DNA of 51,398 nt from Anaerolineales bacterium (GTDB lineage: Bacteria > Chloroflexota > Anaerolineae > Anaerolineales > Villigracilaceae). Each line of letters begins with the position of its first letter. The first letter of the stretch is position 1. A program made the position numbers and the translations under genes. Positions 20,546-44,063 of the stretch are shown here, piece after piece. The DNA lies in contig JAHDWC010000002.1 of assembly GCA_023382575.1 (NCBI GenBank), positions 1 to 51,398 on the forward strand, in the 5' to 3' direction. The notes beneath the pieces were generated by a model. It worked only from the letters and a program-made list of their open reading frames with translations, ran no database searches and was not told where the DNA came from.

Positions 20546-21496
20546 ATGAATCATATGACAAAGAACTTTGCTGTAATCGGGGCGGGCGGGTATATTGCAC
20601 CCCGTCACTTACGTGCCATTCGGGATACAGGTAACCGTCTCATCGCTGCTGTTGACCCAAAAGATTCAGTCGGCGTGCTCGACCAGTACTCCTATGACGT
20701 GAAATTTTTTACCGAAATCGAGCGTTTTGATCGTCATCTTGAAAAACTGCGTCGTGGCACGGAAGAGGAACGCGTCCATATTGTTACGGTTTGCTCTCCA
20801 AATTACTTGCATGATTCACATTGCCGCCTTGCTTTGCGCGTAGGGGCTGATGTGATTTGCGAAAAACCGCTGGTTATCAACCCTTGGAATTTGGATGCTC
20901 TTGAAGAGATTGAGGCAGAGACGAAACACCGCGTCCATACGGTCTTACAGTTACGCGTCCACCCAAGCCTGATCCAACTTCGCGAGTCTTTGCAATCTTC
21001 AAAAGAGATACAGGATGTTGAATTAACCTACATCACCAGTCGTGGACCATGGTACCAAGTTTCATGGAAGGGAAACTACGAAAAGTCGGGTGGCGTAGCG
21101 ACGAACATTGGCATTCATTTTTTTGATTTGTTAATGTGGCTCTTTGGTTCTGTCGGTGGCATCAAGGTCTATCATGCGGATAATGAACGCATGTCAGGTT
21201 TCATTGAATTAGAACGTGCGCGCGTGCGTTGGTTCCTTTCGGTAGACCGAAACGATTTGCCAGAACAGGCAAAGATAAATAACAAAACCACCTATCGTTC
21301 CATCACTGTGGACGGCAGAGAGATCGAATTTTCAGAAGGTTTTACCGATCTGCATACGAAGGTCTATGAAGAGACGCTTGCCGGACGTGGGTTTGGCATC
21401 CTGGATGCCCGTCCATCGGTGCAGTTGACATACAATATTCGTACAGCTCCTATTTCCCCGTTGGATACGTTGGCACATCCGTTATTGAAGAAGTAA
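20546..21496 (+). CDS. wlbA: Gfo/Idh/MocA oxidoreductase, WlbA/WbpB type
   Basis: 316 residues. The Rossmann motif is [13 protein letters not shown] (10-22), the family signature CEKPLV sits at 105-110, and the substrate-site stretch [15 protein letters not shown] carries the conserved His. WlbA oxidises the 3-OH of UDP-N-acetylglucosaminuronate to a 3-keto sugar. This call is supported by order: a WlbB-type acetyltransferase and a WlbC-type aminotransferase follow directly, the same three steps that make UDP-2,3-diacetamido-2,3-dideoxyglucuronate in Bordetella and Pseudomonas. The UDP-GlcNAc 6-dehydrogenase needed before it is not in the window. An ATG at 20555 is an alternative start. Confidence 0.85.
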
Positions 21497-21498
21497 AT

Positions 21499-22080
21499 AT
21501 GGCAGATTATTTTGTGCATGAATCCAGTTATGTCGATGCAGGTGCAGAGATCGGTATGGGGACGAAGATATGGCACTTTTGTCATGTCATGCCACGTGCC
21601 AAGATCGGTGAACGCTGCAATATTGGTCAAAATGTTCTGGTGTCATCCGATGTGACTATTGGGACAAATGTGAAGATCCAGAATAATGTCTCGCTTTATA
21701 CCGGCGTGATAGTTGAGGATGATGTCTTTCTGGGTCCTTCGATGGTGTTTACGAACGTCATCAACCCGCGCAGTCATGTCAGCCGCAAGGAAGAGTACAA
21801 GACCACACTAGTCAAGAAGGGTGCATCTATTGGCGCAAATGCAACTATTGTATGTGGTACGACTCTTGGGCAATATTGCTTTATTGGTGCAGGAGCAGTC
21901 GTGACAAAAGATGTCCCTGATTATGCATTGGCATATGGGAATCCGGCTCGTGTTTGCGGGTGGGTTTGTCAGTGTGGCGAGCAGTTGGATTTTGAGAACG
22001 ACCATGCTATCTGCTCGCGATGTGGTAGTGCTTACAGGAAACGCGATTCAGTTGTCAGTTTGGAGAGAGGCGAAGAATGA
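21499..22080 (+). CDS. wlbB: UDP-sugar 3-N-acetyltransferase, WlbB/WbpD type
   Basis: 193 residues of left-handed beta-helix fold: hexapeptide repeats from about residue 10 ([16 protein letters not shown]) to about 145. The stretch INPRSHVSR, then [17 protein letters not shown], is characteristic of WlbB, with a candidate catalytic His. It ends with VYGNP-like [15 protein letters not shown]-terminal zinc-ribbon-like tail (C-x-C-G ... C-x2-C-G, about 156-175) is also typical of this group. It transfers acetyl from acetyl-CoA to the 3-amino group made by the aminotransferase next door. Two bases separate it from wlbA; it overlaps the aminotransferase by four. Confidence 0.88.
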
Positions 22081-23174
22081 TTTCGTTGGTAGATTTGACG
22101 GCGCAGTATCATTCCATCAAGATGGAAATTGATGCAGCGGTTTTATCCACGTTAGAGTCTGGTCATTTTATTCTTGGTCCACAGGTGGCGAAGTTCGAAG
22201 AAAGTGTTGCATCATATCTGGGGGTTGGTCATGCAATTGGGTTAGCTTCTGGGACGGATGCACTGGTAATTGCGTTACGGGCGTTGAATATCGGCGCTGA
22301 TGATGAAGTCATTATTCCGGCGTATACCTTCTTTGCAACAGCGGGTACTGTGATATCGGTTGGGGCGAAACCAGTTATGGTGGATATTGATCCGCAAACA
22401 TATCAGATTGATGTGAACTATATCGAGTCTGCGATTTCATCGAAGACGAAGGCGATCATCCCGGTGCATTTGTACGGGCATCCGGCAGAGATGAAGCCAA
22501 TTTTGGAGATTGCTCGTAAACATGGAGTGAAGGTCATTGAGGATAACGCACAGGGGTATGGGGCGGAATATTTTGGGAAGAAAACTGGTTCCTTGGGGGA
22601 TATTGGTTGCTTGAGTTTCTTCCCAACCAAGAATCTTGGCGCTTATGGCGATGGTGGCATGGTAGTGACCTCCGATGCAGCACTTGCTGAACGTATGCGT
22701 ATGTTGCGTACTCATGGTTGGAAGAAGAAATATTATTCGGAAGAAGTTGGCTATAACAGCCGACTCGATGCGCTGCAAGCCGCTATTTTGCAAGCTAAAC
22801 TTCCATATTTGGATTTATGGAATAAGAAGCGTCGTGACCTTGCCAACCGCTATAACGAACATTTCGTGCCACTTGGTATCGTCACTCCAATAAAGCGCGA
22901 ATGGGCAAAGCATGTGTATCATCTATATATCATTCGTGTTGAAAAGCGCGATGCCTTGCAAGCTTTCTTGAAAGAGAGAGGGATTGCCTCTGAAGTGTAT
23001 TATCCGCTGCCGCCGCATCTTTCCATTCCTTGTCGTCAGTTTGGTTATAAGGAAGGCGACTTTCCGCATGCGGAGAAGGCAGCGAAGGAAACCCTTGCGC
23101 TTCCACTTTATCCGGAGTTAACCATCGAACAGCAGGATGAAGTCATTGCGGCTGTGAAGGAATTTGTGAGTTGA
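22077..23174 (+). CDS. wlbC: DegT/DnrJ/EryC1/StrS aminotransferase, WlbC/WbpE type
   Basis: 365 residues, PLP-dependent sugar aminotransferase. The PLP lysine is Lys185 in [14 protein letters not shown], with [11 protein letters not shown] (57-67) holding the phosphate and [11 protein letters not shown] (153-163) carrying the Asp that pairs with the PLP nitrogen. It would put the 3-amino group on the keto-uronate made by WlbA, using glutamate. SD AGAGG precedes ATG 22077, which overlaps the stop of wlbB (ATGA). The length and lysine position match WbpE. Substrate is inferred mainly from the wlbA-wlbB context. Confidence 0.88.
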
Positions 23175-23179
23175 GAAAA

Positions 23180-24049
23180 ATGTCTGCTGAATCTGAAGCT
23201 ACACCTAAACAAGAAAACTGGTCTTTGATTATCCGCCCACAACGTGCATGGTGGGATCTGCGTTTGGGCGATTTATGGCGATACCGCGATTTGGTAGTGC
23301 TATTTGTTTGGCGAGATTTTGTCTCCACTTATAAGCAAACTATTTTAGGTCCATTATGGCATATGGTGCAGCCGATCGCCACTACATTGGTGTTTACGGT
23401 TATTTTTGGAAATATTGCCCAACTTTCAACAGATGGGCTTCCTCCTTTTCTGTTTTACATGTCTGGTAATACTGTGTGGTCGTACTTTTCAGCGTGTCTA
23501 ACCAGCACTTCTGATACATTTAGAGCAAATGCGGGCATTTTTGGAAAAGTTTATTTTCCTCGTCTGATTACCCCTGTTTCCATTGTAATTTCCAACCTTA
23601 TTTCATTCGGTATACAGTTTCTGATATTTTTGGGGTTTATGATTTATTTTAAGATGTCGGGTTCAGAGGTATATCCCAACTTTTGGGTATTGTTATTGCC
23701 AATTTTGCTGATGATTATGGCTGGTATGGGGTTGGGACTGGGAATCATCATATCGTCTCTTACAACCAAATATAGAGATCTGCAAAAATTGGTTGGATTT
23801 GGTGTCCAATTATTTATGTATGGCACCCCGGTAATATATCCACTGTCATCAGTTGATGTGGAGTGGCGGTGGCTGATTCTTGCGAATCCAATGACTCCTA
23901 TTGTTGAATTTTTCCGTATGGCTTTTTTGGGGACGAGTTCATTATCTCCAATCTATCTTTTGTACAGTTTTGGAGTTGTAGTCATTATAGTTTTAGCTGG
24001 AGTTCTTGTTTTTAATCGCGTGGAAGCTACGTTTATGGATACGGTGTAA
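23180..24049 (+). CDS. wzm: ABC-2 polysaccharide exporter permease (Wzm)
   Basis: 289 residues with a cytoplasmic N-terminal amphipathic stretch and six transmembrane helices. Family motifs: WRDFVSTYKQTILGPLWHMV (about 48-67) and YRDLQKLVGFGVQLFMY in the second half. Together with the ATPase it moves a finished undecaprenyl-linked glycan across the membrane. The ATG at 23180 is chosen; the in-frame TTG at 23171 overlaps the previous stop. Wzt starts three bases after its stop. Confidence 0.92.
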   Translation: MSAESEATPKQENWSLIIRPQRAWWDLRLGDLWRYRDLVVLFVWRDFVSTYKQTILGPLWHMVQPIATTLVFTVIFGNIAQLSTDGLPPFLFYMSGNTVWSYFSACLTSTSDTFRANAGIFGKVYFPRLITPVSIVISNLISFGIQFLIFLGFMIYFKMSGSEVYPNFWVLLLPILLMIMAGMGLGLGIIISSLTTKYRDLQKLVGFGVQLFMYGTPVIYPLSSVDVEWRWLILANPMTPIVEFFRMAFLGTSSLSPIYLLYSFGVVVIIVLAGVLVFNRVEATFMDTV

Positions 24050-24052
24050 CAT

Positions 24053-25348
24053 ATGTCAACTACGGTTATTTCGGTCGAGGACATTTCAAAGAGCTATCGT
24101 TTGGGTGTGATTGGAACAGGTACTTTTTTTGGAGATCTCAATCGCTGGTGGGCGAGAAGGCTGGGTAGACCAGACCCATATGCGAAGATTGGTGAAGCAG
24201 ATCACGGAAATCGTTATGGTGAGACAATCTTGGCACTTAATAAAGTTAGCTTTCAGGTCAAGCAAGGTGAGGCGCTTGGCATTATTGGACGAAATGGTGC
24301 GGGGAAGAGCACTTTGTTAAAGATTCTATCTCAAGTTACCGCACCAACGTCTGGGGCCGTAAAGGTTAAGGGACGAATTGCAAGCCTGCTTGAAGTTGGA
24401 ACCGGGTTTCATCCCGAGTTGACAGGACGTGAAAATACATATTTGAATGGCGCCATCCTTGGCATGAGCCGCGCAGAAGTGAATCGTAAATTCGACGAGA
24501 TCGTAGGTTTTTCAGGTGTTGAAAAATTTATTGATACTCCAGTTAAGCGCTATTCAAGCGGGATGTATGTGCGCCTTGCTTTTGCGGTGGCAGCACACCT
24601 CGAACCTGATATTCTGGTGGTGGACGAAGTGCTGGCTGTGGGGGACGCAGAGTTCCAGAAAAAGTGTTTGGGCAAGATGGGCGACGTTGCAAACGAAGGG
24701 CGTACTGTATTATTTGTCAGTCATAATATGTCGGCGATCAATAGACTGTGTTCCCGTGCCTTGCTGATGGATGGTGGTTTGCTGGTTGAGGATGGAACTG
24801 CCTCGGAGGTTACCGGCAGATATTTACAGGGGTCAGATGCCATGGACCAGGGACGCAAATGGTCTCTCGAAAATGCTCCCGGTACGGAAGAGTTAAAGCT
24901 CCTCTCAGTAAAATTGATTCGTAATGATGATGCATTCGCCTCTTCGGTGATTGAAGTCAAGGATTCGCTGGCGTTGGAGATCGAATATCTGGTCAACAAG
25001 CCAGGCCTCCGATTCCGTTGTGCCGCTTTATTCTATAGTCAGGGTGTTTGTGCTTTTGCTTCCATTGAACCAAAGGAAGTGAAACGCGAGGTTGTTGGTC
25101 GTTATGTCTCCAGAGTGTTTATACCCCCGCATTTGCTTGGAGAGAACGAATACACGGTTGGAGTTTCGATTTTTACCTCTATTGGGGTCAAACAACATTT
25201 TGTCAGGGTGCAGGATATCTTAAGCTTTCAGGTTTTTGACTCGATGACGGCTCCCTCGGCAAGAGGTGATTATGCTGAGAATATGGTCAGTGCATTGCGT
25301 CCTATGTTGAATTGGGATTTAACGTTCAAGGATGCCGCTGGTAATTAA
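24053..25348 (+). CDS. wzt: ABC exporter ATPase with carbohydrate-binding C-domain (Wzt)
   Basis: 431 residues. The nucleotide-binding domain spans about 1-250: Walker A GRNGAGKST (79-87), signature YSSGM (167-171), Walker B ILVVDEVLAVGD (187-198) and switch His in VSHNM. An insert of about 40 residues between strand 1 and Walker A is typical of Wzt. The C-terminal domain (about 265-420; VKDSLALEIEYLV, then CAFASIEPKE) has the beta-sandwich pattern of Wzt-C, which in O8/O9a-type systems recognises the modified non-reducing end of the chain. This implies an export-coupled cap; the methyltransferase, acyltransferase and ulosonate genes nearby are candidates for making it. Confidence 0.92.
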   Translation: MSTTVISVEDISKSYRLGVIGTGTFFGDLNRWWARRLGRPDPYAKIGEADHGNRYGETILALNKVSFQVKQGEALGIIGRNGAGKSTLLKILSQVTAPTSGAVKVKGRIASLLEVGTGFHPELTGRENTYLNGAILGMSRAEVNRKFDEIVGFSGVEKFIDTPVKRYSSGMYVRLAFAVAAHLEPDILVVDEVLAVGDAEFQKKCLGKMGDVANEGRTVLFVSHNMSAINRLCSRALLMDGGLLVEDGTASEVTGRYLQGSDAMDQGRKWSLENAPGTEELKLLSVKLIRNDDAFASSVIEVKDSLALEIEYLVNKPGLRFRCAALFYSQGVCAFASIEPKEVKREVVGRYVSRVFIPPHLLGENEYTVGVSIFTSIGVKQHFVRVQDILSFQVFDSMTAPSARGDYAENMVSALRPMLNWDLTFKDAAGN

Positions 25349-31910: not shown

Positions 31911-32945
31911 ATGACGACATTTATTGATCCTCAGCGTTGTATGGTTATTGGCGAAGTTGCCCAATCGCATGATGGCAGTCTCGGTATGGCGCATGCTTTT
32001 ATAGATGCCATCGCCAATGCAGGTGCAGATGCGGTGAAATTCCAAACCCACATTGCAGCAGCGGAGAGCACTCCACGAGAACCGTGGCGCGTAAAGTTTA
32101 GCAGGCAGGATACCTCCCGCTACGAATATTGGAAACGCATGGAGTTCACCAAAGAACAATGGCATGGTCTGGCTGACCATGCCATTGAACGCGGTTTATT
32201 TTTTCTCAGTTCACCCTTCTCCCCTGAAGCAGTCAGTTTGTTGACAGAGATTGGGGTCCCTGCTTGGAAGATCGCTTCTGGCGAAGTGAATAACCGTCAA
32301 TTGTTTGACCAGATATTGGAAACGAAATTACCGGTTCTATTATCCACCGGTATGAGCACCATCCAAGAAATCGACACGACTGCCAGACAAGTGATGGATG
32401 CTGGTGTGGAATTGATGGTGATGCAATGCACCACTGCCTATCCATGCCCACCGGAGAGGATCGGTTTGAATATGATCCCCTTCTTTCGTGAGCGATATGG
32501 CTGTGCGGTCGGACTTTCCGATCATTCTGGCACAATCTATGCTGGGTTGGCTGCTGCTACAGTAGGGATAGAAGCACTGGAAGTTCATGTCGCTTTTAGT
32601 CGCGAAATGTTTGGCCCTGATATCCCCGCCTCGGTAACAACGGGTGAGTTGAAACAACTAGTTGAGGGGATCCGTTTTATCGAGCGGATGCGTTCAAATC
32701 CTGTGGATAAAGATGCGTTTGCTGGTGAGGCACTCCCATTGCGTCAGCTATTCACTAAAAGTATTGTCGCTTCAATGGATTTGTCAGAGGGCATTATTCT
32801 TAAAGAAGTACATTTGGCACTAAAAAAACCCGGAACGGGGTTGCCCGCAGAAAAGATTTCTGCCTTAATTGGTAAGCAGCTTGTGCGGGCAATCCGCGCG
32901 GATGAGCAAATATTAGAGAGCGATGTCCAGCCCTCCAAGGAGTGA
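31911..32945 (+). CDS. neuB: Nonulosonic acid synthase (NeuB/LegI type)
   Basis: 344 residues. The NeuB TIM barrel covers about 1-270: GEVAQSHDGSLGMAHAFI (13-30), GADAVKFQTH, WKIASGEVNN, VLLSTGMST and MQCTTAYPCPP. A C-terminal SAF/antifreeze-like domain (about 285-344) ends the protein, the usual full-length layout. It condenses phosphoenolpyruvate with an N-acetylated hexosamine to a nine-carbon ulosonic acid. The epimerase/hydrolase and CMP-synthetase follow immediately. LegB at 50116 makes a legionaminate-type substrate more likely than plain ManNAc, but both are open. Confidence 0.9.
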   Translation: MTTFIDPQRCMVIGEVAQSHDGSLGMAHAFIDAIANAGADAVKFQTHIAAAESTPREPWRVKFSRQDTSRYEYWKRMEFTKEQWHGLADHAIERGLFFLSSPFSPEAVSLLTEIGVPAWKIASGEVNNRQLFDQILETKLPVLLSTGMSTIQEIDTTARQVMDAGVELMVMQCTTAYPCPPERIGLNMIPFFRERYGCAVGLSDHSGTIYAGLAAATVGIEALEVHVAFSREMFGPDIPASVTTGELKQLVEGIRFIERMRSNPVDKDAFAGEALPLRQLFTKSIVASMDLSEGIILKEVHLALKKPGTGLPAEKISALIGKQLVRAIRADEQILESDVQPSKE

Positions 32946-32949
32946 AGCA

Positions 32950-34104
32950 TTGAGAAGAAAAATTTGCGTTGTGGTAACTGCAAGACCAAGTTATAGCCGT
33001 ATTCGAACGGTGCTGCAAGCGATTAAATCTGATCCTCAACTCGAACTGCAGTTGGTGGCAGCAGCTTCTTCGTTACTAGATCGATATGGCAATGCAATTA
33101 GATATATGGAACAGGATGGATTTGAGATCGCCAGCAAAGTATATATGGTCGTGGAGGGAGAGAATCTGGCGACCATGGCGAAGACAACCGGCTTGGGTCT
33201 ATTGGAGCTTGCTACAGCCTTTGATAACCTCAAGCCAGATGTAGTTGTGACTATTGCTGATCGATACGAGACCATTGCTACAGCTATTGCTGCTTCGTAT
33301 ATGAACATTCCATTGGCGCATGTACAAGGCGGCGAGATTACCGGTACTATTGATGAGAAGGTACGTCATGCCGTCACCAAATTGGCGGACATCCATTTGG
33401 TGTCTACTCAAAAGGCGGCAGAGAACGTGATCCGTATGGGAGAAGACCCCACCTCGGTTTTTGTCACGGGGTGTCCGTCCATCGATATTGCTGCATCTGT
33501 ATTGGAAGCGCCTGCAGTTGATTTTGATCCATTTGCCAAATATAAAGGCGTTGGTGATGTATTCGACTTGAAGAACGATTATCTGGTTGTTATGCAACAC
33601 CCTGTCACAACTGAACATGAGAGAGCCCGTGCACAGATAATGGAAACATTATATGCCGTCCATGATATTGGACTTCCCACATTTTGGTTTTGGCCCAATG
33701 TGGATGCTGGTTCGGATGGAACATCACGAGGAATACGTCAGTTTCGCGAATTGGAACGCCCAACCAATATTCACTTTTTCAAGAATATGGAGCCGGAGGA
33801 TTTCCTTCGATTGGTATATAACAGCCGCTGTTTGGTAGGAAATTCAAGCGTTGGGATTCGAGAGGCTTCCTTCTTGGGTATCCCCACTGTCAACATTGGG
33901 ACGCGTGAGGCGGGGAGGGAAAGAGGGCAGAATGTGTTGGATGTGGATTATGACAAGGAACAAATAAAGTCGGCCATTCAAAGGCAGTTATTAAATGGAC
34001 GATATATCTCAAATACACTTTATGGGAATGGCGGTGCAGGACGTAGGATTGCAGAGATCCTCAGAGATGTATCGCTTAAATTCGAAAAAAGACTGACGTA
34101 TTGA
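32950..34104 (+). CDS. neuC: Hydrolysing UDP-GlcNAc 2-epimerase (NeuC/LegG type)
   Basis: About 384 residues. Starts as RRKICVVVTARPSYSRI; family motifs are HVQGGEITGTIDEKVRHA, VTGCPSIDIA, and GNSSVGIREASFLGIP near the C-terminus. It releases the 2-epimerised free sugar and UDP, feeding NeuB. I choose TTG 32950, because AAGGAG at 32937-32942 is seven bases before it and the N-terminus then matches the family. The ATG at 32923 would overlap neuB and add nine residues. It could also act on a 2,4-diacetamido sugar (LegG). Confidence 0.88.
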   Translation: MRRKICVVVTARPSYSRIRTVLQAIKSDPQLELQLVAAASSLLDRYGNAIRYMEQDGFEIASKVYMVVEGENLATMAKTTGLGLLELATAFDNLKPDVVVTIADRYETIATAIAASYMNIPLAHVQGGEITGTIDEKVRHAVTKLADIHLVSTQKAAENVIRMGEDPTSVFVTGCPSIDIAASVLEAPAVDFDPFAKYKGVGDVFDLKNDYLVVMQHPVTTEHERARAQIMETLYAVHDIGLPTFWFWPNVDAGSDGTSRGIRQFRELERPTNIHFFKNMEPEDFLRLVYNSRCLVGNSSVGIREASFLGIPTVNIGTREAGRERGQNVLDVDYDKEQIKSAIQRQLLNGRYISNTLYGNGGAGRRIAEILRDVSLKFEKRLTY

Positions 34105-34106
34105 TA

Positions 34107-34799
34107 ATGAGTAAGATTTTAGGTATCATTCCGGCTCGCGGCGGCTCGAAAGGGATTCCCGGCAAGAATATCCGCTTGCTTAATGGAAAACCTCTTATTT
34201 ACTATACAGTGGAGGCAGCGCGTGCTTCTGAATTAATAGACCAGCTTATTCTGACTACCGACTCGCCAGAGATTGCGGAGATAGGGAAAAGCCTAGGGGT
34301 TGATGTTCCCTTCTTACGTCCACCCGAGTTGGCGCAAGATGATACACCCATGTTACCTGTTCTGGAACATGCAATCCAGCATGTGGAATCTGGTGGCTGG
34401 CAGCCTGAAATTATTGTACTTCTTCAACCGACAGCTCCTTTACGTCGGGGAGAGCATATTCGTTTAGCAGTCAATATGCTAATGGAATCAAAATGCGACT
34501 CAGTTGTTAGCGTGGTCGAAGTACCACGTCATTATGTTCCAGACTTTGTGTTAAAGATCGAAGAAGGCAAACTAAAACCGTTCTTGGATGCCCCACTCGC
34601 AACACGCAGACAGGATGCCCGCCCTGCCTTTTCAAGAGATGGAACGATCTATGTGTTTTGGCGCGATATGTTCTTTGAAAAACATACCATCTATGGCGAT
34701 GATTGCCGCCCCATTCTGATCCCAGATCACGAGTCATGTAATCTGGATACGATGATGGACTGGCAAGAAGCAGAGAGAATGCTTCAAGAGAGAAAATGA
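34107..34799 (+). CDS. neuA: CMP-nonulosonate cytidylyltransferase (NeuA/LegF type)
   Basis: 230 residues. Signature IPARGGSKGIPGKNIRLL (8-25) is the CTP-binding loop; LQPTAPLRRGEHI and the Asp near FSRDGTIYVFW are conserved. It activates the NeuB product as a CMP sugar. ATG 34107 is preferred to the TTG at 34101, which overlaps the neuC stop. The 3' end overlaps the next GT gene by four bases, tying the CMP sugar to that transferase. Confidence 0.92.
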   Translation: MSKILGIIPARGGSKGIPGKNIRLLNGKPLIYYTVEAARASELIDQLILTTDSPEIAEIGKSLGVDVPFLRPPELAQDDTPMLPVLEHAIQHVESGGWQPEIIVLLQPTAPLRRGEHIRLAVNMLMESKCDSVVSVVEVPRHYVPDFVLKIEEGKLKPFLDAPLATRRQDARPAFSRDGTIYVFWRDMFFEKHTIYGDDCRPILIPDHESCNLDTMMDWQEAERMLQERK

Positions 34800-37326: not shown

Positions 37327-38373
37327 ATGAGAAAACTGATAATAAATGATTTTACAATTTCCGATGATAGTGACTGCTTTGTTATCGCGGAAATTGGCAA
37401 CAACCATCAAGGCGACCTGCAAAAAGCATTGGAAATGTTCAAAGCTGCGAAAGAATGTGGCGTGGATGCGGTCAAATTGCAAAAGCGCGATAACAAATCC
37501 CTGCTGACAAAGGCAGCGTACGACAAACCGTATGATAACGAAAATAGCTTCGGCGCAACCTATGGTGAACATCGTGAGGCATTGGAGTTCGGAAAAAAAG
37601 AATACGTTGAACTGAAAAAATATGCAGACGAAATTGGTCTGACCATGTTTGCTACGGCTTTCGACATGAACAGTGCGGACTTTCTAGCCGAGCTTGATAT
37701 GCCGCTTTACAAGATCGCTTCGGGTGATCTCAAGAACACTCCGTTGCTAAAGCATGTTGCCAAGATCGGCAAGCCAATGATTATCAGCACCGGCGGCGGG
37801 ACGATGGAAGATGTTCAGCGTGCCTATGATGCGATCATGCCGATCAACAAGCAACTGGCGATTCTGCAATGCACCGCCTCCTACCCCGCTGAACCGCAGG
37901 ACTTGAATCTGCGCGTTATCACCACGTACCGTGAGAAGTTTCCTGATGTTGTGATCGGCTTGTCTGACCATGAGAATGGCATTGCCATGGCGTTGGCAGC
38001 CTATGTGCTTGGCTCGCGCATGGTGGAGCAGCACTTCACGCTCAACCATACCTGGAAGGGAACCGACCATGCCTTCTCGCTTGAGCCGATCGGGATGCGT
38101 AAACTTGTCCGCGATTTGCGTCGTGTGAAAGTGGCAATGGGTGATGGTGAGAAACGCATCTATCCAAGCGAAGTTAATCCCATTACAAAGATGGGTAAGA
38201 AACTTGTCGCGGCACGTAACCTCAAAGCAGGTCAGGTTTTGACCCGTGAAGATATCGCCATCAAATCACCCAGCGACGGCATCCCGCCGTATGAGTTTGA
38301 CAATGTTATAGGCAAGACCCTCACCAAGGACTTGCTTGAAGATGAAAATTTTGCATTCGAGAATTTGAAGTAA
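37327..38373 (+). CDS. Second NeuB-family synthase with SAF domain
   Basis: 348 residues: VIAEIGNNHQGDLQKALEMF (19-38), GVDAVKLQKRDN, LYKIASGDLKN, MIISTGGGTMED, LQCTASYPAEP, and a C-terminal SAF domain (about 285-340). It differs clearly from the NeuB at 31911 (LQKRDN in place of FQTH; GGG at the STG site), so it probably takes another aldose. It has no NeuC partner; instead an aldehyde dehydrogenase, a CMP-synthetase and a transketolase follow. The 90-base AT-rich leader may hold a promoter, and AAGGA lies before ATG 37327. The product could be an unusual ulosonic acid. Confidence 0.88.
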   Translation: MRKLIINDFTISDDSDCFVIAEIGNNHQGDLQKALEMFKAAKECGVDAVKLQKRDNKSLLTKAAYDKPYDNENSFGATYGEHREALEFGKKEYVELKKYADEIGLTMFATAFDMNSADFLAELDMPLYKIASGDLKNTPLLKHVAKIGKPMIISTGGGTMEDVQRAYDAIMPINKQLAILQCTASYPAEPQDLNLRVITTYREKFPDVVIGLSDHENGIAMALAAYVLGSRMVEQHFTLNHTWKGTDHAFSLEPIGMRKLVRDLRRVKVAMGDGEKRIYPSEVNPITKMGKKLVAARNLKAGQVLTREDIAIKSPSDGIPPYEFDNVIGKTLTKDLLEDENFAFENLK

Positions 38374-38380
38374 TAAGTAC

Positions 38381-38398
38381 CGCAAAATTTATTTTGCG
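38381..38398. repeat. Intercistronic inverted repeat
   Basis: CGCAAAAT and ATTTTGCG form 8-base arms around TT, between the second synthase and the aldehyde dehydrogenase. It may be an mRNA-stabilising hairpin or an operator; no T-run follows, so it is not a terminator. Confidence 0.45.
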
Positions 38399-38412
38399 CG
38401 AAAAAGGTATAC

Positions 38413-39873
38413 ATGCTCCCCAACCAAATCCCCAATTGGATCGGAACCAACGAACATCCTACTCAAACCAATGAGTGGTTCGAGAAACTCAATCCCGCGA
38501 ACGGACAAGTCCTCTTCAAAGTGGCGCGTTCGCGGCAAGCTGATATTCAGCAAGCCGTTGAACTGGCGAAGAATGCCCAGCCTGCTTGGGCGGATACGCC
38601 TGCTGTTCAGCGCGGCATGATCCTGCACAAAATCGTAGTGGGGATGCAAAACCGCCAAGATGAGATTGCTGCCATTGTCGCCGCCGAAACTGGAAAATCC
38701 ATGAAAGAGGCGTTGGGCGAAACGGGCGGAGCGATCCAATGCGGATTGTTCTACGCCAGCGAAGGTCAGCGCTTGTATGGTCGCACCACCACAAGCGGAA
38801 CAGCGAATAAATATGCGATGACGATTCGTCAGCCCATCGGCGTGGCGGGACTCATCATCGCCGCGAATACGCCGATCGCGAATGTGGCGTGGAAGGTTTT
38901 CCCCGCACTCGTTTGTGGCAATGCCGCTATTTTGAAAGCTGCCGAAGATACGCCTGCCACGGCGTGGGTCTTTGGACAAATTGCAAAGGAAGCGGGTTTG
39001 CCCGATGGCGTGTTGAGCATCATGCAGGGATTTGGCGAAGAGGCGGGCGCGCCGTTGGTTGCGCACAATGATGTGGGCGTGATCAGTTTCACTGGCTCAA
39101 CCGAGGTGGGACGCATCATCAACCGCACCGCAGGGGAACGCTTCGCGCGCATCTCTTTGGAACTGGGCGGGAAGAATCCGCTGGTGGTGTGTGATGACGC
39201 CGATCTTGAGAATGCTGCCAAGTGGGTTCTGCTCTCAGCCTTTAGCAATGCAGGACAGCGCTGCGCTTCAACCAGCCGCATTATCATTTTTGAATCGGTG
39301 TATGAAAAGTTCCGTGACATGCTCGTGGAGAAAACGAAGAAGTTGAAAGTCGGCATTACTGATGATTGTGACTTTGGCGCGGTCATCAATGAGGGACAGT
39401 TGCTTAACATGGTGGATGCCGTGCAAAAGGCAGAGCAGAGTGGCGCGACCATCCTTTGCGGCGGCGAGCGTATGACCGATGCCGAACATAAAGACGGCTA
39501 CTACATGGCGCCGACTCTCATTGAGAATGTTGATCCGCATGATGAAATTTCGGAATGTGAGTTGTTTGGACCGGTAGCTTTGTTGTTCAAAGTGAAAGAT
39601 TTTGAACACGCGCTCCAAATGGCGAATGATACGCCCTATGGTCTGACCGCCAGTATTCATACAAAAAGTATTCACCGTGCCACTCGTTTTTATGACAAGG
39701 TTCAAACAGGCGTGGCAGTCGTCAACGCTGGCACGCACGGCTCCGAGCCGCACATGCCATTTGGTGGGCGCAAACTTTCTGGCAATGGTTCACGTGAACC
39801 GGGCACCGAAGCGCTCAACATTTATTCTGAGCTGAAAGACGTGTATATCAACATCGACCCGACGCAGGTATGA
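38413..39873 (+). CDS. NAD(P)-dependent aldehyde dehydrogenase
   Basis: 486 residues, standard ALDH length. Catalytic Cys284 in NAGQRCAS and Glu250 in LELGGKNP are present; the cofactor region has FTGSTEVGR (226-234). The usual PWNFP segment reads IIAANTPIANVAWK (148-161), a variant that still holds the Asn. It oxidises an aldehyde to an acid in the cytoplasm. Its tight place between a NeuB-type synthase and a CMP-synthetase (four-base overlap with the latter) suggests it acts on a sugar intermediate. ALDH is not part of the known sialic, legionaminic or pseudaminic routes. Confidence 0.9.
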   Translation: MLPNQIPNWIGTNEHPTQTNEWFEKLNPANGQVLFKVARSRQADIQQAVELAKNAQPAWADTPAVQRGMILHKIVVGMQNRQDEIAAIVAAETGKSMKEALGETGGAIQCGLFYASEGQRLYGRTTTSGTANKYAMTIRQPIGVAGLIIAANTPIANVAWKVFPALVCGNAAILKAAEDTPATAWVFGQIAKEAGLPDGVLSIMQGFGEEAGAPLVAHNDVGVISFTGSTEVGRIINRTAGERFARISLELGGKNPLVVCDDADLENAAKWVLLSAFSNAGQRCASTSRIIIFESVYEKFRDMLVEKTKKLKVGITDDCDFGAVINEGQLLNMVDAVQKAEQSGATILCGGERMTDAEHKDGYYMAPTLIENVDPHDEISECELFGPVALLFKVKDFEHALQMANDTPYGLTASIHTKSIHRATRFYDKVQTGVAVVNAGTHGSEPHMPFGGRKLSGNGSREPGTEALNIYSELKDVYINIDPTQV

Positions 39874-40619
39874 GCAAAGAAAATCCTTCCATCATCGCTT
39901 TGATCCCTGCGCGTGCCGGTTCGAAACGCGTGCAGGGAAAGAATATCCGCCCGTTGGCGGGGCATCCGCTGATCGCGTATACGATCTGTTCTGCAAAACA
40001 GAGCGGGATTTTTGCGGATATTCTGGTCTCGACTGACTCGGAAGAGTATGCTGAAATTGCGCGGCAATACGGCGCGGAGGTTCCCTTCTTGCGCCCGGCT
40101 GAAATTGCGGGCGACCTCGCGCTCGACATCGAATGGCTGGACTTTACGCTGCACAAATTGAAAGAGATGGGACGCGAGTACGATTGCTTTAGCATTCTTC
40201 GCCCTACCAGTCCCTTTCGTTTGCCGAGCACCATTCAACGGGCATGGAGTGCGTTCAAAGCCGAGGAAGGCGTAGACTCGCTCCGCGCGGTGGAGAAGGT
40301 CAAGGATCATCCCGGCAAGATGTGGGTGATTCGCGGCAAGCGCATGATGCCTTTGCTCCCATTTGGACCAAAGGAACAGCCCTGGCACAGCACGCCCTAT
40401 CAAGGCTTGCCTGAAGTCTATTCACAGAATGCCAGCCTTGAAATCGCCTGGTCACGAGTGGTTTTCAATGGACGGACCATCGCGGGCGAAGTGGTTATGC
40501 CGTTTGTTTCAGAAGGTTTTGAAGGCTTTGATGTGAATCACCCCTATGATTGGGATTTGGCGGAACGTCTCGTTGCAAGTGGAGAAGTGCAACTGCCGAA
40601 AGTAGAAAAAATTTCTTAG
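39870..40619 (+). CDS. Second CMP-ulosonate cytidylyltransferase (NeuA-like)
   Basis: 249 residues. IPARAGSKRVQGKNIRPLAG (12-31) is the CTP-binding signature; LVSTDSEEYAEIA and ILRPTSPFRLPSTI follow as in NeuA. It is clearly different from the copy at 34107. It should activate the acid made by the second synthase. The ATG overlaps the aldehyde dehydrogenase stop (ATGA). C-terminal FDVNHPYDWDLAERL is typical of the family. The 54 bases after it contain only the SD of the transketolase. Confidence 0.9.
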   Translation: MSKENPSIIALIPARAGSKRVQGKNIRPLAGHPLIAYTICSAKQSGIFADILVSTDSEEYAEIARQYGAEVPFLRPAEIAGDLALDIEWLDFTLHKLKEMGREYDCFSILRPTSPFRLPSTIQRAWSAFKAEEGVDSLRAVEKVKDHPGKMWVIRGKRMMPLLPFGPKEQPWHSTPYQGLPEVYSQNASLEIAWSRVVFNGRTIAGEVVMPFVSEGFEGFDVNHPYDWDLAERLVASGEVQLPKVEKIS

Positions 40620-40673
40620 AGAAGAATCAGGTGCGAGCGCGGGGTGAGGCGCAGCGTCTATAAAGAGGAAAAC

Positions 40674-42650
40674 ATGGTTGAACTTAAATTAATCCCCGTG
40701 GAAGAATTCAAGCGCGTGCGAAATTCATCCGCCGACAAATACAAGAAACTTCAGATCATCGCGGACATGTGCCGCGCCAACACGCTCACCGAAGTGAAGC
40801 GCGCCGGGTCGGGGCATCTCGGCTCGAGCTTCAGCGCGATGGATATTGTAGTGTGGATGTATTACGAAGAGATGAACACCATCAAGGTCGGCTTCGACAG
40901 CCCTGACCGCGATATTTATTTTTCGTCGAAGGGACATGATGTGCCGGGGTTGTATGCCGTGCTGCATTCGCTTGGCGAAATTCCTGATGCCATGCTTATG
41001 TCGTTGCGTCGCCTCAATGGATTGAACGGTCATCCTGATATCGGCAATCGCGGCATGGAAGCCAACTCGGGTTCGCTCGGCATGGGCATCTCGAAGGGGC
41101 GCGGCATGGCGTGGGCGAAGAAGTACAACAACAACGGCGGGCATGTGTTCGTGATGACCGGCGATGGTGAATTGCAGGAAGGTCAGAACTACGAAGCCTT
41201 GCATGTCACTGCGCATCACAAGGTTGATAACCTCACCGTTATTGTTGACGATAACAAGGTGCAATCTGATAAGCCTGTTGCCGAGATCATCGACCTGCGT
41301 AACCTTGTCGAAAAATTTACTGCCTTTGGCTGGCATGTCATTCGCATTGATGGGCATGATTTCCGCTCCATTGAAAATGCCATTGCCGAAGCCAAGCAGG
41401 TCAAAGGCAAACCGCAGATCATCATCGCCGATACCATCAAAGGTCGCGGTATTTCCTTTATGGAGCATCCCGCCGCGCTTGAAATTGGAAAAGGACTCTA
41501 TCCCTGGCATTCGGGCGCGCCGGATGATGCAGCCTTCGAGGCAGGTTACTCTGAACTGATTCAACGCATCAATGCGGACCTCAAAGCTGTGTCGCTCGAC
41601 CCGTTGCATTTGACTCCCGTTGAGCCGGAAGCCAAAGCCGCGAGTCCGTCCATGTTGGAAGGGGAACCTCTCAGCCAGGCGGCATTGGATCGCCTGGCTG
41701 TGAAGCCGACCGATGAATTCGTCTCACGCGCCTATGGTCAAGCCTTGGTTGAACTTGCCGCCACACGTAAGGACATTGTCGTTCTCGACGCGGATCTCTC
41801 CTCTGATTGCAAAGTCCGCGACTTTGAATACACGTATCCTGACCGCTTCATAGAAAACGGCATTGCCGAACAGGATATGGTCTCGATGGCAGCGGGTCTT
41901 GCCCGTCAGGGACTTCTGCCAGTCGTCAACTCCTTCGCTAGTTTCCTCGCCTCTCGCGCCAATGAGCAGATTTACAATGCCGCGGGCGAAAGGTCCAAGA
42001 TCATTTATGCGCTGCATTATGCAGGGCTTATTCCCGCCGGGCCGGGTAAATCTCACCAGTCCCTGCGCGATATTTCGCTCTTCTCCGCGCTGCCGAATTG
42101 CACCATCCTGCAACCATGTAGCGCTGAAGAGACGCGCATGGCAATGGATTACGCTGTAAACAAGGCTGAAGATGTGATTGCCTTGCGCCTTATCATTGGT
42201 CCAAGTCCGCGCCGGATTACGCTCCCGGCTGGGTATGAGTTTAAGCCTGGGGTGGGCTGTCAACTCACGGCGGGGAAGGATGCGGTCATGTTCGCGTATG
42301 GACCAGTCATGCTGCACGAAGCGCTCCTCGCCAGTGAACTCCTCGCCGAGCGCGGATTCGGCTTGAGCATCATCAATATGCCTTGGCTCAACCGTGTGGA
42401 TGTGAAATGGCTGACCGAAGCCCTCAAGCCGTATTCCACCATCTTCATGCTCGAAGATCATCACCCCGCTGGTGGCTTGATGGATAACATTCTGACTGCC
42501 TGTTCGGAACATGGTTTGTTGAATGGCAAACAGATGATCAAGTTCGCTGTTGAAGGCTATCCCGCCTGCGGTACGCCGCAGCAGGCGCTAGCATTCCATG
42601 AGTTGGATGGTTTGTCTTTGTCAAAGCGTGTGATGAAGTATTGCGGTTAA
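40674..42650 (+). CDS. Full-length transketolase in a sugar-nucleotide module
   Basis: 658 residues; all three transketolase domains are fused. Thiamine-diphosphate site: SGHLGSSFSAMD (46-57, His48), GHPDIGN, then MTGDGELQEGQN (161-172) through DDNKVQ with the metal-binding Asp/Asn. The pyrimidine domain has FIENGIAEQDMVSMAAGLA with the catalytic Glu, and SHQSLRDISLFSAL; a C-terminal domain follows. ATG 40674 is chosen for its SD AGAGGA. It moves a two-carbon ketol unit between sugars. Position between CMP-synthetase and glycosyltransferase argues for a dedicated role, such as making the aldose for the second synthase, rather than housekeeping pentose metabolism. Confidence 0.9.
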   Translation: MVELKLIPVEEFKRVRNSSADKYKKLQIIADMCRANTLTEVKRAGSGHLGSSFSAMDIVVWMYYEEMNTIKVGFDSPDRDIYFSSKGHDVPGLYAVLHSLGEIPDAMLMSLRRLNGLNGHPDIGNRGMEANSGSLGMGISKGRGMAWAKKYNNNGGHVFVMTGDGELQEGQNYEALHVTAHHKVDNLTVIVDDNKVQSDKPVAEIIDLRNLVEKFTAFGWHVIRIDGHDFRSIENAIAEAKQVKGKPQIIIADTIKGRGISFMEHPAALEIGKGLYPWHSGAPDDAAFEAGYSELIQRINADLKAVSLDPLHLTPVEPEAKAASPSMLEGEPLSQAALDRLAVKPTDEFVSRAYGQALVELAATRKDIVVLDADLSSDCKVRDFEYTYPDRFIENGIAEQDMVSMAAGLARQGLLPVVNSFASFLASRANEQIYNAAGERSKIIYALHYAGLIPAGPGKSHQSLRDISLFSALPNCTILQPCSAEETRMAMDYAVNKAEDVIALRLIIGPSPRRITLPAGYEFKPGVGCQLTAGKDAVMFAYGPVMLHEALLASELLAERGFGLSIINMPWLNRVDVKWLTEALKPYSTIFMLEDHHPAGGLMDNILTACSEHGLLNGKQMIKFAVEGYPACGTPQQALAFHELDGLSLSKRVMKYCG

Positions 42651-42653
42651 TGA

Positions 42654-44063
42654 ATGTCTGAAATAAAAATTGCAATTCCCCTACACGGCAAGATGGCGGC
42701 GCGCGCCTTTCATCAACCATATTTTCGCCAACGACTGACAGAAGGTGGCTTCAAACCACTGTATTTTCTCAGTCCTACATATTTTCGCACATTTGATTTT
42801 GATCCGGAACAGTATTTTGAATTGCAAGTCGAACAATATGATGAGCAATATCAAAAACATTTTTTGCTGCAGCAACTACGGATGCTTCGACGTTTTGTGG
42901 TGGTGACGGATACCACTGACTTGCGGTTTCGTGAGATGATTGAAACTAAGTTATACGATGCCACCCTGCTTGGAATGGCGACACAAATGACTTATGTAAC
43001 TGCTGTTCGTCATATTCCTGGAATTGGGGAATGGTTAGCCTGGCTGGAAAGAAGATTTTTCGCCACCCATGCCCATGATAAGGATTTCCAAGAACAAGGC
43101 GTGCAGTGCGTATTAACTCCCGGTATGGGGAATTTCAATTTTTGGAATGAAGGAAACTTTACTCTTGAGGCTCAAAGAATGCGCATTCCAGTCTTTGCTG
43201 CCATTACAAATTACGACAATGTCGTCAATATGGGGTATCGTGGATTTACTCCCAATTGTCTTGGCGTGTGGAGCAAACAAATGGCGGATGAAGTGATTAA
43301 ATTGCATCGATATCCGTCAAATAAAATTGAGGTTATTGGTGCTGTCCAGTATGATCGCTTTATGCGGCCTTTGCTGCTCAGCCGTGAAGAATTTTTAAAG
43401 TCCATACATCTTGACCCTGCTAAGAAGACCATTTTTTTTGCGGGCGGTGTTAATATAAACCATTATTTTGAGATATATCGTTCGTTTGTTGAAAGAAAGG
43501 GTCGCCTATTGAATGGAAATTATAATTTTGTGGTTCGTCCACAACCTCATGCAAAATTAATAGACAGCCCTGGTTGGCGAATCATAGAGAAGTTATTCAC
43601 ACAGGCAGGGATATATGTTTCCAATCCTGGATCAATAGATGCAAGTGGAGATCGTGGGAATGAACTTCGCCTTGACCTTGGATTGACGAATGAGCAGGAT
43701 GAATTAAATTATCTTTTACGATATAGTGACGTTTTGATTAATAATTTCTCCACCATGGGTTTGGAAGCCGCCATTTGCGATCTCCCCACTATTTATGTTG
43801 GTTACGATGCATATACTTTTGGCGTGCGATTTGGCGTGACAACTCGTTTTCAACAACGTATGACGCATAATCGTCGTCCATTGCGCCTGCGAGCCTCAAA
43901 GGTGGCGACGAGTGAAGAGGAATTGTGGTTACATATTGAACAATATTTATCTGACAGAACTATTGATCGCGAGGCCAGGCAGGAATATGCAATTTCAGAA
44001 TGTGGCGAGTTGGATGGAAATGCTGCTGATAGATTGATGCAAATGATAAAAACACGTGTGTAA
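42654..44063 (+). CDS. GT-B protein, candidate ulosonate transferase (member 3)
   Basis: 469 residues. Shares the motif order of the proteins at 30527 and 34796, but diverged: AAITNYDNVVNMGYRGFTP, VIGAVQYDRFM, VVRPQPHAK, and INNFSTMGLEAAICDLPT. N-terminus IKIAIPLHGKMAARAF. It starts three bases after the transketolase stop, the third case of this family next to a CMP-sugar module. Likely cytoplasmic, peripheral. The DNA is AT-richer than the transketolase gene before it. Donor inferred from context only. Confidence 0.65.
   Translation: MSEIKIAIPLHGKMAARAFHQPYFRQRLTEGGFKPLYFLSPTYFRTFDFDPEQYFELQVEQYDEQYQKHFLLQQLRMLRRFVVVTDTTDLRFREMIETKLYDATLLGMATQMTYVTAVRHIPGIGEWLAWLERRFFATHAHDKDFQEQGVQCVLTPGMGNFNFWNEGNFTLEAQRMRIPVFAAITNYDNVVNMGYRGFTPNCLGVWSKQMADEVIKLHRYPSNKIEVIGAVQYDRFMRPLLLSREEFLKSIHLDPAKKTIFFAGGVNINHYFEIYRSFVERKGRLLNGNYNFVVRPQPHAKLIDSPGWRIIEKLFTQAGIYVSNPGSIDASGDRGNELRLDLGLTNEQDELNYLLRYSDVLINNFSTMGLEAAICDLPTIYVGYDAYTFGVRFGVTTRFQQRMTHNRRPLRLRASKVATSEEELWLHIEQYLSDRTIDREARQEYAISECGELDGNAADRLMQMIKTRV

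Follow-up and report, generated by a model that had tools for sequence, protein, structure and literature searches.

Why should a gene block for a nonulosonic acid carry a transketolase? The question is raised by four neighbouring genes in a 51,398-nucleotide stretch of Anaerolineales DNA (contig JAHDWC010000002.1), here called the window. Among the sugars on the surfaces of bacteria and archaea, nonulosonic acids are key ones, and the routes to them start, to our knowledge, from amino sugars or mannose phosphate and proceed without a transketolase (TK). If six conserved enzymes include a TK family of their own, nonulosonic acid synthesis would gain a new carbon-editing step; new acidic and amino sugars would be expected in phyla that are poorly known, and TK genes that annotation would assign to the pentose-phosphate pathway would be explained.

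The block runs in the order synthase, aldehyde dehydrogenase (ALDH), CMP-synthetase, and TK, all on the plus strand (Table 1). The ALDH and CMP-synthetase genes share 4 bases and the remaining intergenic gaps are short, an arrangement that the original prediction had described correctly. The enzymes that it named are likewise borne out. The first gene product is a NeuB family ulosonate synthase, matching the Pfam domains NeuB (5.5e-80, 268.7 bits) and SAF (5.8e-10, 40 bits), both above cut-off. ALDH (Aldedh, 2.6e-153) has Cys284 and Glu250 exactly as predicted, and the CMP-synthetase (CTP_transf_3, 2.7e-21) contains the CTP-binding signature PARAGSKRVQGKNI. The best NCBIfam matches of the scanned proteins all fall below curated cut-offs, including that of ALDH to alpha-ketoglutaric semialdehyde dehydrogenase. 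Among the four genes, Pfam revealed neither a NeuC-type UDP-sugar 2-epimerase nor amino-sugar enzymes. Downstream, the putative glycosyltransferase matches BFO_1060 at 57.5 bits (cut-off 200); its homologues come after TK at other loci, and it probably uses the CMP-sugar.

Table 1. Genes of the four-gene block and the gene that follows it (window coordinates).
Feature	Position	Strand	Basis
NeuB-type ulosonate synthase with SAF domain	37327..38373	+	Pfam, residue alignment
Aldehyde dehydrogenase (ALDH)	38413..39873	+	Pfam, Cys284 and Glu250
CMP-ulosonate synthetase, CTP_transf_3, PseF-like below cut-off	39870..40619	+	Pfam, NCBIfam
Specialised transketolase (TK), signature D[AGS]DLxxDC and PAGPGxSHQ	40644..42650	+	Pfam, alignment, tree
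Probable GT-B glycosyltransferase using CMP-sugar	42654..44063	+	predicted from a distant match to the BFO_1060 domain family

At the position of Arg314 in meningococcal NeuB, a residue that we take to contact the N-acyl group, the window NeuB has serine. Its relatives in ALDH-type blocks have Ser, Thr, or Cys there, and three other NeuBs in the compared set have Arg or Lys. With 318 bits for NeuB_NnaB (cut-off 400) and 248 for PseI (cut-off 340), the window NeuB stays below the cut-off of both families; the score is weak evidence by itself since the window's ordinary NeuB2 is also below cut-off.

The TK has Transketolase_N, pyr, and C domains, the predicted thiamine site (GDG...N), and the catalytic His and Glu of a transketolase, and its best NCBIfam match is to a transketolase equivalog (414 bits, cut-off 488), followed by a secondary dxs match of 182 bits. 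Its start is uncertain: ATG 40674 is possible instead of GTG 40644, and the alignments of two more distant relatives begin near the ATG; a 97% identical copy retains the upstream residues too. A grouping with the housekeeping copy, which the original prediction had named as a test, was not found. A canonical TK lies on another contig of the same genome and shares 35% identity with the window TK over the N half, and the two types separate in a tree (the archaeal TK L148 counts as a signature TK, not a canonical one; L134, a duplicate of the canonical TK of the window genome, was removed). The idea of a housekeeping duplicate was therefore rejected. Relatives on plasmids (one record, 42% identity, E at most 1e-80) and in a phage collection (eight records, 32–44% identity, E at most 1e-40) were uninformative.

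In an alignment of 84 specialised TK sequences (L009 and L010 as duplicates and six partial sequences included), the equivalents of human His37, His77, His110, His258, and Glu366 are retained wherever the position is present; split TKs, which are encoded in many genomes in place of the full-length form, additionally lack the His37 equivalent. Human Arg318, Ser345, His416, Asp424, and Arg474 are presumably the phosphate and hydroxyl ligands. Of this classical set, the Ser345 position is Asp in 84/84 sequences, Arg318 is Arg in 0/84, and Asp424 and His416 are replaced by Pro and by Tyr or Phe, respectively, in 83/83, with the alignment of Arg474 uncertain. Residues with which human TK binds sugar phosphates have been lost from the family, and this loss gives no account of what accepts the two-carbon unit.

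How far the four genes belong together was assessed in 80 loci, the best of 291 TK relatives found among 84,980 species, each represented by a single genome, with TK present in all 80 by design. NeuB, ALDH, and CMP-synthetase stand beside TK in 30 of them, so the set does occur elsewhere, as the original prediction had proposed to check. Thirteen of the 30 have NeuB, HAD, SDR, ALDH, and CMP-synthetase (HAD and SDR are introduced below), five are identical without a detected HAD, and 12 are of the window type (NeuB, ALDH, and CMP-synthetase), which recurs in related Anaerolineales. With one TK clade, made up of Ignavibacteria and relatives, set aside, 63 of the 80 loci remain, and in 42 of them the available sequence reaches at least 5 kb upstream of TK; NeuB, SDR, ALDH, or CMP-synthetase is found in 41 of these 42, and NeuB in 38. 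Gene order is conserved across phyla, and the arrangement is not due to chance. NeuB, ALDH, CMP-synthetase, and TK also co-vary: their pairwise distances are correlated (r between 0.72 and 0.90, reached in 0/2000 permutations) over 29 loci, about 10 of them close relatives and with shared descent uncorrected. Omitted were L009 and L010, which come from the genomes of L018 and L023, L021 with its broken frames, and the fragment L086. The conservation of the set in other genomes upholds the prediction of a distinct ulosonic acid pathway.

Two methanogens and members of other bacterial phyla complete the block with a KdsC-like phosphatase of the HAD type and a short-chain dehydrogenase (SDR) resembling gluconate 5-dehydrogenase; HAD was detected in 13 of the 30 NeuB–ALDH–CMP-synthetase blocks. 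Compact blocks include one of six proteins in Methylomirabilis (L083) and one of five in Delta proteobacterium NaphS2 (L030). The best SDR matches include gluconate 5-dehydrogenase and KduD, and HAD matches KdsC and Kdn-9-phosphatase. Described relatives of both act on sugar acids and ulosonate phosphates, and SDRs of the gluconate 5-dehydrogenase/KduD type oxidise secondary alcohols. In a 296-genome sample, a full-length TK was found in nine genomes, the N half of a split TK in 34, and a close SDR in 46; exactly one TK form is present in 43 of the 46 close-SDR genomes, neither in the other three, and either in 0 of the 250 others, where ‘close’ means at least 51% identity (46 of 57 genomes, the remainder at 46% or less; a cut set after the results were seen) and the counts and their Fisher and hypergeometric tests ignore shared descent. 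Full and split TK occupy the same slot of the block.

Both partners were missed by the original prediction, and in the window genome they lie outside the four-gene locus. Neither SDR nor HAD is present in the DNA around the window block or around the 12 window-type blocks (one truncated). The window genome has them only at another locus, where HAD is fused to a CMP-synthetase. An SDR of another type occurs in 12/12 window-type genomes tested; since it is also common in the order regardless of TK (133/201 genomes, with or without TK), it shows availability only. The second-locus SDR was rejected as linkage evidence on the same count, being present also in same-genus genomes that lack TK.

Some other loci have, instead of ALDH, a class III aminotransferase (L062, for example) or a tartronate-semialdehyde-reductase-like protein (L044, for example). 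All three match aldehyde-handling families, and thus a TK that makes an aldehyde after NeuB has acted fits better than one acting before it. Two loci (L034 and L036) carry NeuB–HAD–SDR–CMP-synthetase–TK and no local ALDH; an overlooked ALDH was rejected, as the gene between CMP-synthetase and TK reads unlike one. An ALDH substitute in L205 and L216 was likewise rejected, the L205 sequence reading as endonuclease- or phosphatase-like rather than as an aldehyde enzyme. The CMP-synthetase is more distant, and located after TK, in 6 of the 18 SDR-containing ALDH blocks.

That a TK-dependent ulosonate pathway exists we regard as highly probable, given the gene set, its linkage, the genome-wide co-occurrence, and the TK residue changes. 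Its substrate, order, and product can be proposed. The whole explanation, a dedicated pathway to a CMP-activated modified ulosonic acid of the surface glycan, is put at roughly 0.48, and an order in which two carbons are removed falls slightly short of that. The pathway is proposed to start from sugar phosphates of central metabolism rather than from nucleotide sugars. NeuB would condense PEP with an aldose phosphate that has no N-acetyl group (of the Man-6-P type) to a Kdn-like ulosonate, and the KdsC-like phosphatase would take off the terminal phosphate. SDR would then oxidise the penultimate secondary alcohol, C8 of the Kdn-like acid, thereby turning the far end into a hydroxymethyl ketone. 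From this the specialised TK would cut a ketol unit made of the two end carbons, so that C7 becomes an aldehyde, which ALDH would oxidise to a 3-deoxy-hept-2-ulosaric acid, and CMP-synthetase would activate the shortened ulosaric acid. Sister lineages would instead aminate the aldehyde with the class III aminotransferase or reduce it with the tartronate-semialdehyde-reductase-like protein. For the window genome this requires SDR and phosphatase to be supplied by a different locus, unless its substrate is another one. More generally—and a shade more tentatively than the order of steps—a modular chain-shortening route may be envisaged in many bacterial phyla and methanogens: TK excises a two-carbon ketol unit from the full-length product, the aldehyde is oxidised, aminated, or reduced by lineage to give dicarboxylic, amino, or short ulosonates, and the two TK forms replace each other.

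The original prediction had TK act before the synthase, building an unusual aldose (phosphate) to which NeuB adds PEP, with ALDH oxidising the far end before CMP activation. The linkage of TK to NeuB and CMP-synthetase agrees with this; moreover, the specialised TK is the only Transketolase_N protein found in two methanogen genomes—both MAGs that may be incomplete—and could there be the only source of TK products. However, the phosphate-binding residues are lost, a second Transketolase_N protein in 16 of the 18 genomes searched should put ordinary TK products at hand there, TK co-occurs with an SDR and a phosphatase whose described relatives handle sugar acids and ulosonate phosphates, and the SDR and the swapping of ALDH for other aldehyde-handling enzymes are left unexplained. 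An aldose-building TK is therefore less favoured and seems unlikely; the oxidation to an acid group by ALDH before CMP activation remains plausible. Loss of the phosphate ligands also disfavours a TK that solely supplies E4P or pentoses, an idea drawn from the two methanogens. Nor are the lone TKs of Ignavibacteria housekeeping enzymes: of ten genomes with a lone TK, seven have canonical TKs plus an SpsF–aminotransferase–SDR–HAD–NeuB block elsewhere.

The same genes would equally suit an extension of the chain, whereby SDR makes a terminal or ring carbonyl and TK, which accepts aldehydes, adds a two-carbon ketol unit to give a longer or branched ulosonic acid; since the partners ALDH, aminotransferase, and reductase suggest that TK yields an aldehyde rather than a hydroxy ketone, this is improbable. 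Marginally less credit is due to an SDR that makes the terminal aldehyde directly, so that the product would be a ulosaric acid of full length or, as in Kdo8N, a sugar aminated at its end: HAD, SDR, ALDH, and aminotransferase all fit, yet the named SDR relatives oxidise secondary alcohols, and the tight association of TK with SDR and the shared slot of its two forms sit poorly with an indirect role for TK. An acyl transfer as in DXS, with pyruvate or another keto acid as donor, is very unlikely. The AlphaFold monomer of TK gives a better global superposition with DXS (TM 0.74) than with human TK (0.45), and there is the secondary dxs match, but human TK is the best structure match by E-value, TK models are preferred by sequence, and the better superposition may be an artefact of the monomer model. 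Least probable of all is that an ordinary sialic acid, legionaminic acid, or Kdn is made and the neighbouring genes are unrelated to it: NeuB and CMP-synthetase are of generic kinds and an ordinary NeuB–NeuC–CMP set (31911–34799, NeuC over cut-off) lies 2.5 kb upstream, but conserved order, co-variation, and co-occurrence speak against it. This ordinary set could in principle share enzymes with the four-gene block.

Among known systems, the Kdn/Kdn-9-phosphate route uses the same types of synthase, phosphatase, and CMP-synthetase and, like the block, has no nucleotide-sugar precursor enzymes; it needs, as far as we know, no SDR, ALDH, or TK. The legionaminic, pseudaminic, and sialic acid pathways share the NeuB family synthase and CMP-synthetase, whereas the block lacks NeuC-type epimerase, dehydratase, and acetyltransferase, its NeuB lacks the Arg314 equivalent, and TK, ALDH, and SDR are added. 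In Kdo8N synthesis (KdnB/KdnA), the ulosonate end is oxidised and then aminated, resembling the aminotransferase variant; the enzyme families differ and we know of no TK among them. No paper joining a transketolase to a nonulosonate gene set was among the matches listed, a weak result given that only open-licence papers were covered; PMC12342839, PMC6388019, and PMC7439481 have, in the parts retrieved, no bearing on TK. Two SDRs, AciE and EpaB, are involved when nonulosonic acids are epimerised at C8, and they are, like the block SDR, of the adh_short_C2 type; C8 chemistry is shared by proposal, and the retrieved text describes epimerisation with no TK or ALDH (PMC12053666). For tartrate, an engineered TK converts 5-ketogluconate to tartaric semialdehyde (PMC12016104). 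That route is engineered or proposed and, unlike the present set, has no ulosonate and no conserved gene block; the sequence of 5-keto acid, TK cleavage, aldehyde, and aldehyde dehydrogenase is the one proposed here (PMC12016104).

Comparative sequence evidence gives good support to a putative transketolase (TK)-dependent ulosonate pathway, conserved and apparently new to annotation. The placement and domains of the four open reading frames (ORFs) are as the original prediction had described them, as judged by an ORF check and a domain search, and its Cys284 and Glu250 of the aldehyde dehydrogenase (ALDH) and TK thiamine motif are all present in the sequences. The window is a surface-polysaccharide locus, with numerous glycosyltransferases as well as an ABC transporter pair close to the four-gene block. 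Within it, an ordinary nonulosonate set includes a NeuC scoring 387 bits (curated cut-off 236); thus, two ulosonate pathways adjoin here. Another gene group, at 20546-25348, suggests that an amino-sugar acid is made and that a polysaccharide leaves the cell by an ABC transporter.

Coordinates of loci, and best described relatives of the partner enzymes, all of which fall below curated cut-offs
Feature	Location	Coordinates	Content or best described relatives
Ordinary nonulosonate set	Window	31911-34799	NeuB, NeuC (hydrolysing 2-epimerase), CMP-synthetase
Possible amino-sugar acid group	Window	20546-25348	Gfo/Idh oxidoreductase, hexapeptide acyltransferase, DegT aminotransferase, then ABC transporter pair
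Candidate partner genes	L108, contig C7 of the same genome	7270-10467	SDR, CMP-synthetase fused to KdsC-like phosphatase, NeuB without SAF part
Split TK	L206	9826-11588	
Gene beside NeuB	L204	10579-11379	Sterol desaturase/fatty acid hydroxylase-like
HAD			KdsC, Kdn-9-phosphatase
SDR			Gluconate 5-dehydrogenase and KduD among best matches
ALDH			Alpha-ketoglutaric semialdehyde dehydrogenase
Aminotransferase			Glutamate-1-semialdehyde aminomutase
Reductase			Tartronate semialdehyde reductase

The genome encodes a canonical TK separate from that of the block, and at least two Transketolase_N proteins were found in 16 of 18 genomes searched; in the methanogen genomes of loci L069 and L089 (Methanoregulaceae, Methanospirillaceae), the block TK is the only one found. 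In a tree of block-type, split and canonical (not human-type) TKs, 79 block-type TKs form a single clade (support 0.75), set apart from 13 canonical and 11 split TKs. The phosphate and hydroxyl ligands of human TK map onto the window TK as Arg318 to Ser361, Ser345 to Asp388, His416 to Tyr459, and Asp424 to Pro467, while Arg474 aligns to a glycine in an uncertain stretch. Of 84 sequences compared (including two duplicates and six partial ones), all 84 have Asp at position 388 and none has Arg at 361; the 83 that cover position 467 all have Pro there, and every sequence spanning the catalytic His and Glu retains them. The AlphaFold model (mean pLDDT 86.9, pTM 0.87) matches human TK best by E-value yet superposes globally better on DXS, making the predicted domain arrangement tentative.

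The TK alignment was scanned against one genome per species (84,980 species), and partner genes were assigned by profile searches at the best 80 of 291 relatives. Among these 80 loci, NeuB, a KdsC-like phosphatase (HAD), a gluconate-5-dehydrogenase-like SDR, ALDH, and CMP-synthetase accompany TK at 13, the same set without a detected HAD at five, and the window type, lacking SDR and HAD, at 12. Eight loci show a variant in which an aminotransferase accompanies SDR and NeuB (HAD in six), and two show a tartronate-semialdehyde-reductase-like variant; other subsets make up 14, seven being ALDH and CMP-synthetase only and many lying at contig ends. The nearest TK relatives among the best 80 bear the names Anaerolineales, Anaerolineae, Chloroflexi, and Candidatus Villigracilaceae, which makes an Anaerolineales bacterium (Chloroflexota) the probable host of the window. 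Two loci (L034 and L036) carry NeuB, HAD, SDR, CMP-synthetase, and TK but no local ALDH. By record titles, the 18 ALDH blocks with an SDR come from, among others, Deltaproteobacteria, Desulfarculus, Methylomirabilis, Gemmatimonadaceae, Planctomycetota, Scalindua, Pedosphaera, Bdellovibrionaceae, Muiribacterium, Actinomycetota, Chloroflexi, and two methanogen families; six of these blocks carry a more distant CMP-synthetase 3′ of TK, and at L069 the NeuB-to-ALDH genes lie on the opposite strand. Gene distances co-vary inside 29 blocks, by a statistic that ignores shared descent. With its three NeuB genes and two SDRs, a 21-kb deltaproteobacterial stretch (L027) may contain three adjacent ulosonate sets.

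TK stands alone at the remaining 26 of the 80 loci, 17 of which form one clade (Ignavibacteria and relatives); among the other nine, upstream sequence is shorter than 0.7 kb in seven. Nine of ten lone-TK genomes contain a NeuB relative (E at most 1e-20), which in seven of the ten lies in an SpsF-aminotransferase-SDR-HAD-NeuB block. The strongest evidence for a TK step in the pathway is the co-occurrence of TK and SDR within a sample of 296 genomes from the phylum of one lone-TK genome. Full TK occurs in nine (E at most 1e-100), the N half of a split TK in 34 (E at most 1e-60), and SDR in 57 (E at most 1e-45), with an identity of at least 51% in 46 of the latter. Exactly one TK form is present in 43 of these 46 genomes and neither in three, with either form in 0/250 others, a tally that ignores phylogeny and uses an identity cut chosen after the results were seen. 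Among 40 loci read from the 57 SDR genomes, the split pair lies between SpsF and the aminotransferase in 11, with only the C half seen in one more; in Bacteroidales, full TK occupies this slot. N halves at L206 and ten similar loci show GGCFIG or similar in place of the SGH motif, so all 11 lack the first active-site histidine. The versions with a class III aminotransferase or a split TK extend the finding far beyond the original prediction's coordinates. The gene listed for L204, its type assigned by reading of the sequence, has counterparts beside NeuB at 20 other loci (21/40).

At window-type loci, HAD and SDR are missing from the block. Contig C7 of the same genome carries both, the HAD as a fusion, with a short NeuB; since this SDR type is common across the order (133/201 genomes), its use in trans with the window block, like that of the HAD, is only possible. 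Another genome of the order (G017) has NeuB and the start of HAD at the end of contig C26 and SDR-to-TK on contig C126, the six-gene order thus being inferred across the break.

Gluconate 5-dehydrogenase and KduD oxidise secondary alcohols of sugar acids. The relatives of ALDH, aminotransferase, and reductase all handle aldehydes, and the preceding step should therefore yield one; TK would supply it by cutting the two terminal carbons off a penultimate-keto ulosonate. This carbon removal is the mechanism we favour, as an unproven proposal. By Fischer-projection reasoning, an 8-keto Kdn-type acid would offer the D-threo arrangement required of TK donors. The Ser at the meningococcal Arg314 position in the window NeuB, together with the short NeuBs of other variants, in which no residues align to the SAF part, suggests a NeuB substrate without an N-acetyl group. 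Two papers provide precedents, one implicating SDRs in C8 chemistry of nonulosonic acids (PMC12053666) and the other obtaining tartaric semialdehyde with an engineered TK that acts on 5-ketogluconate (PMC12016104), whereas the TK proposed here would act on a ulosonate.
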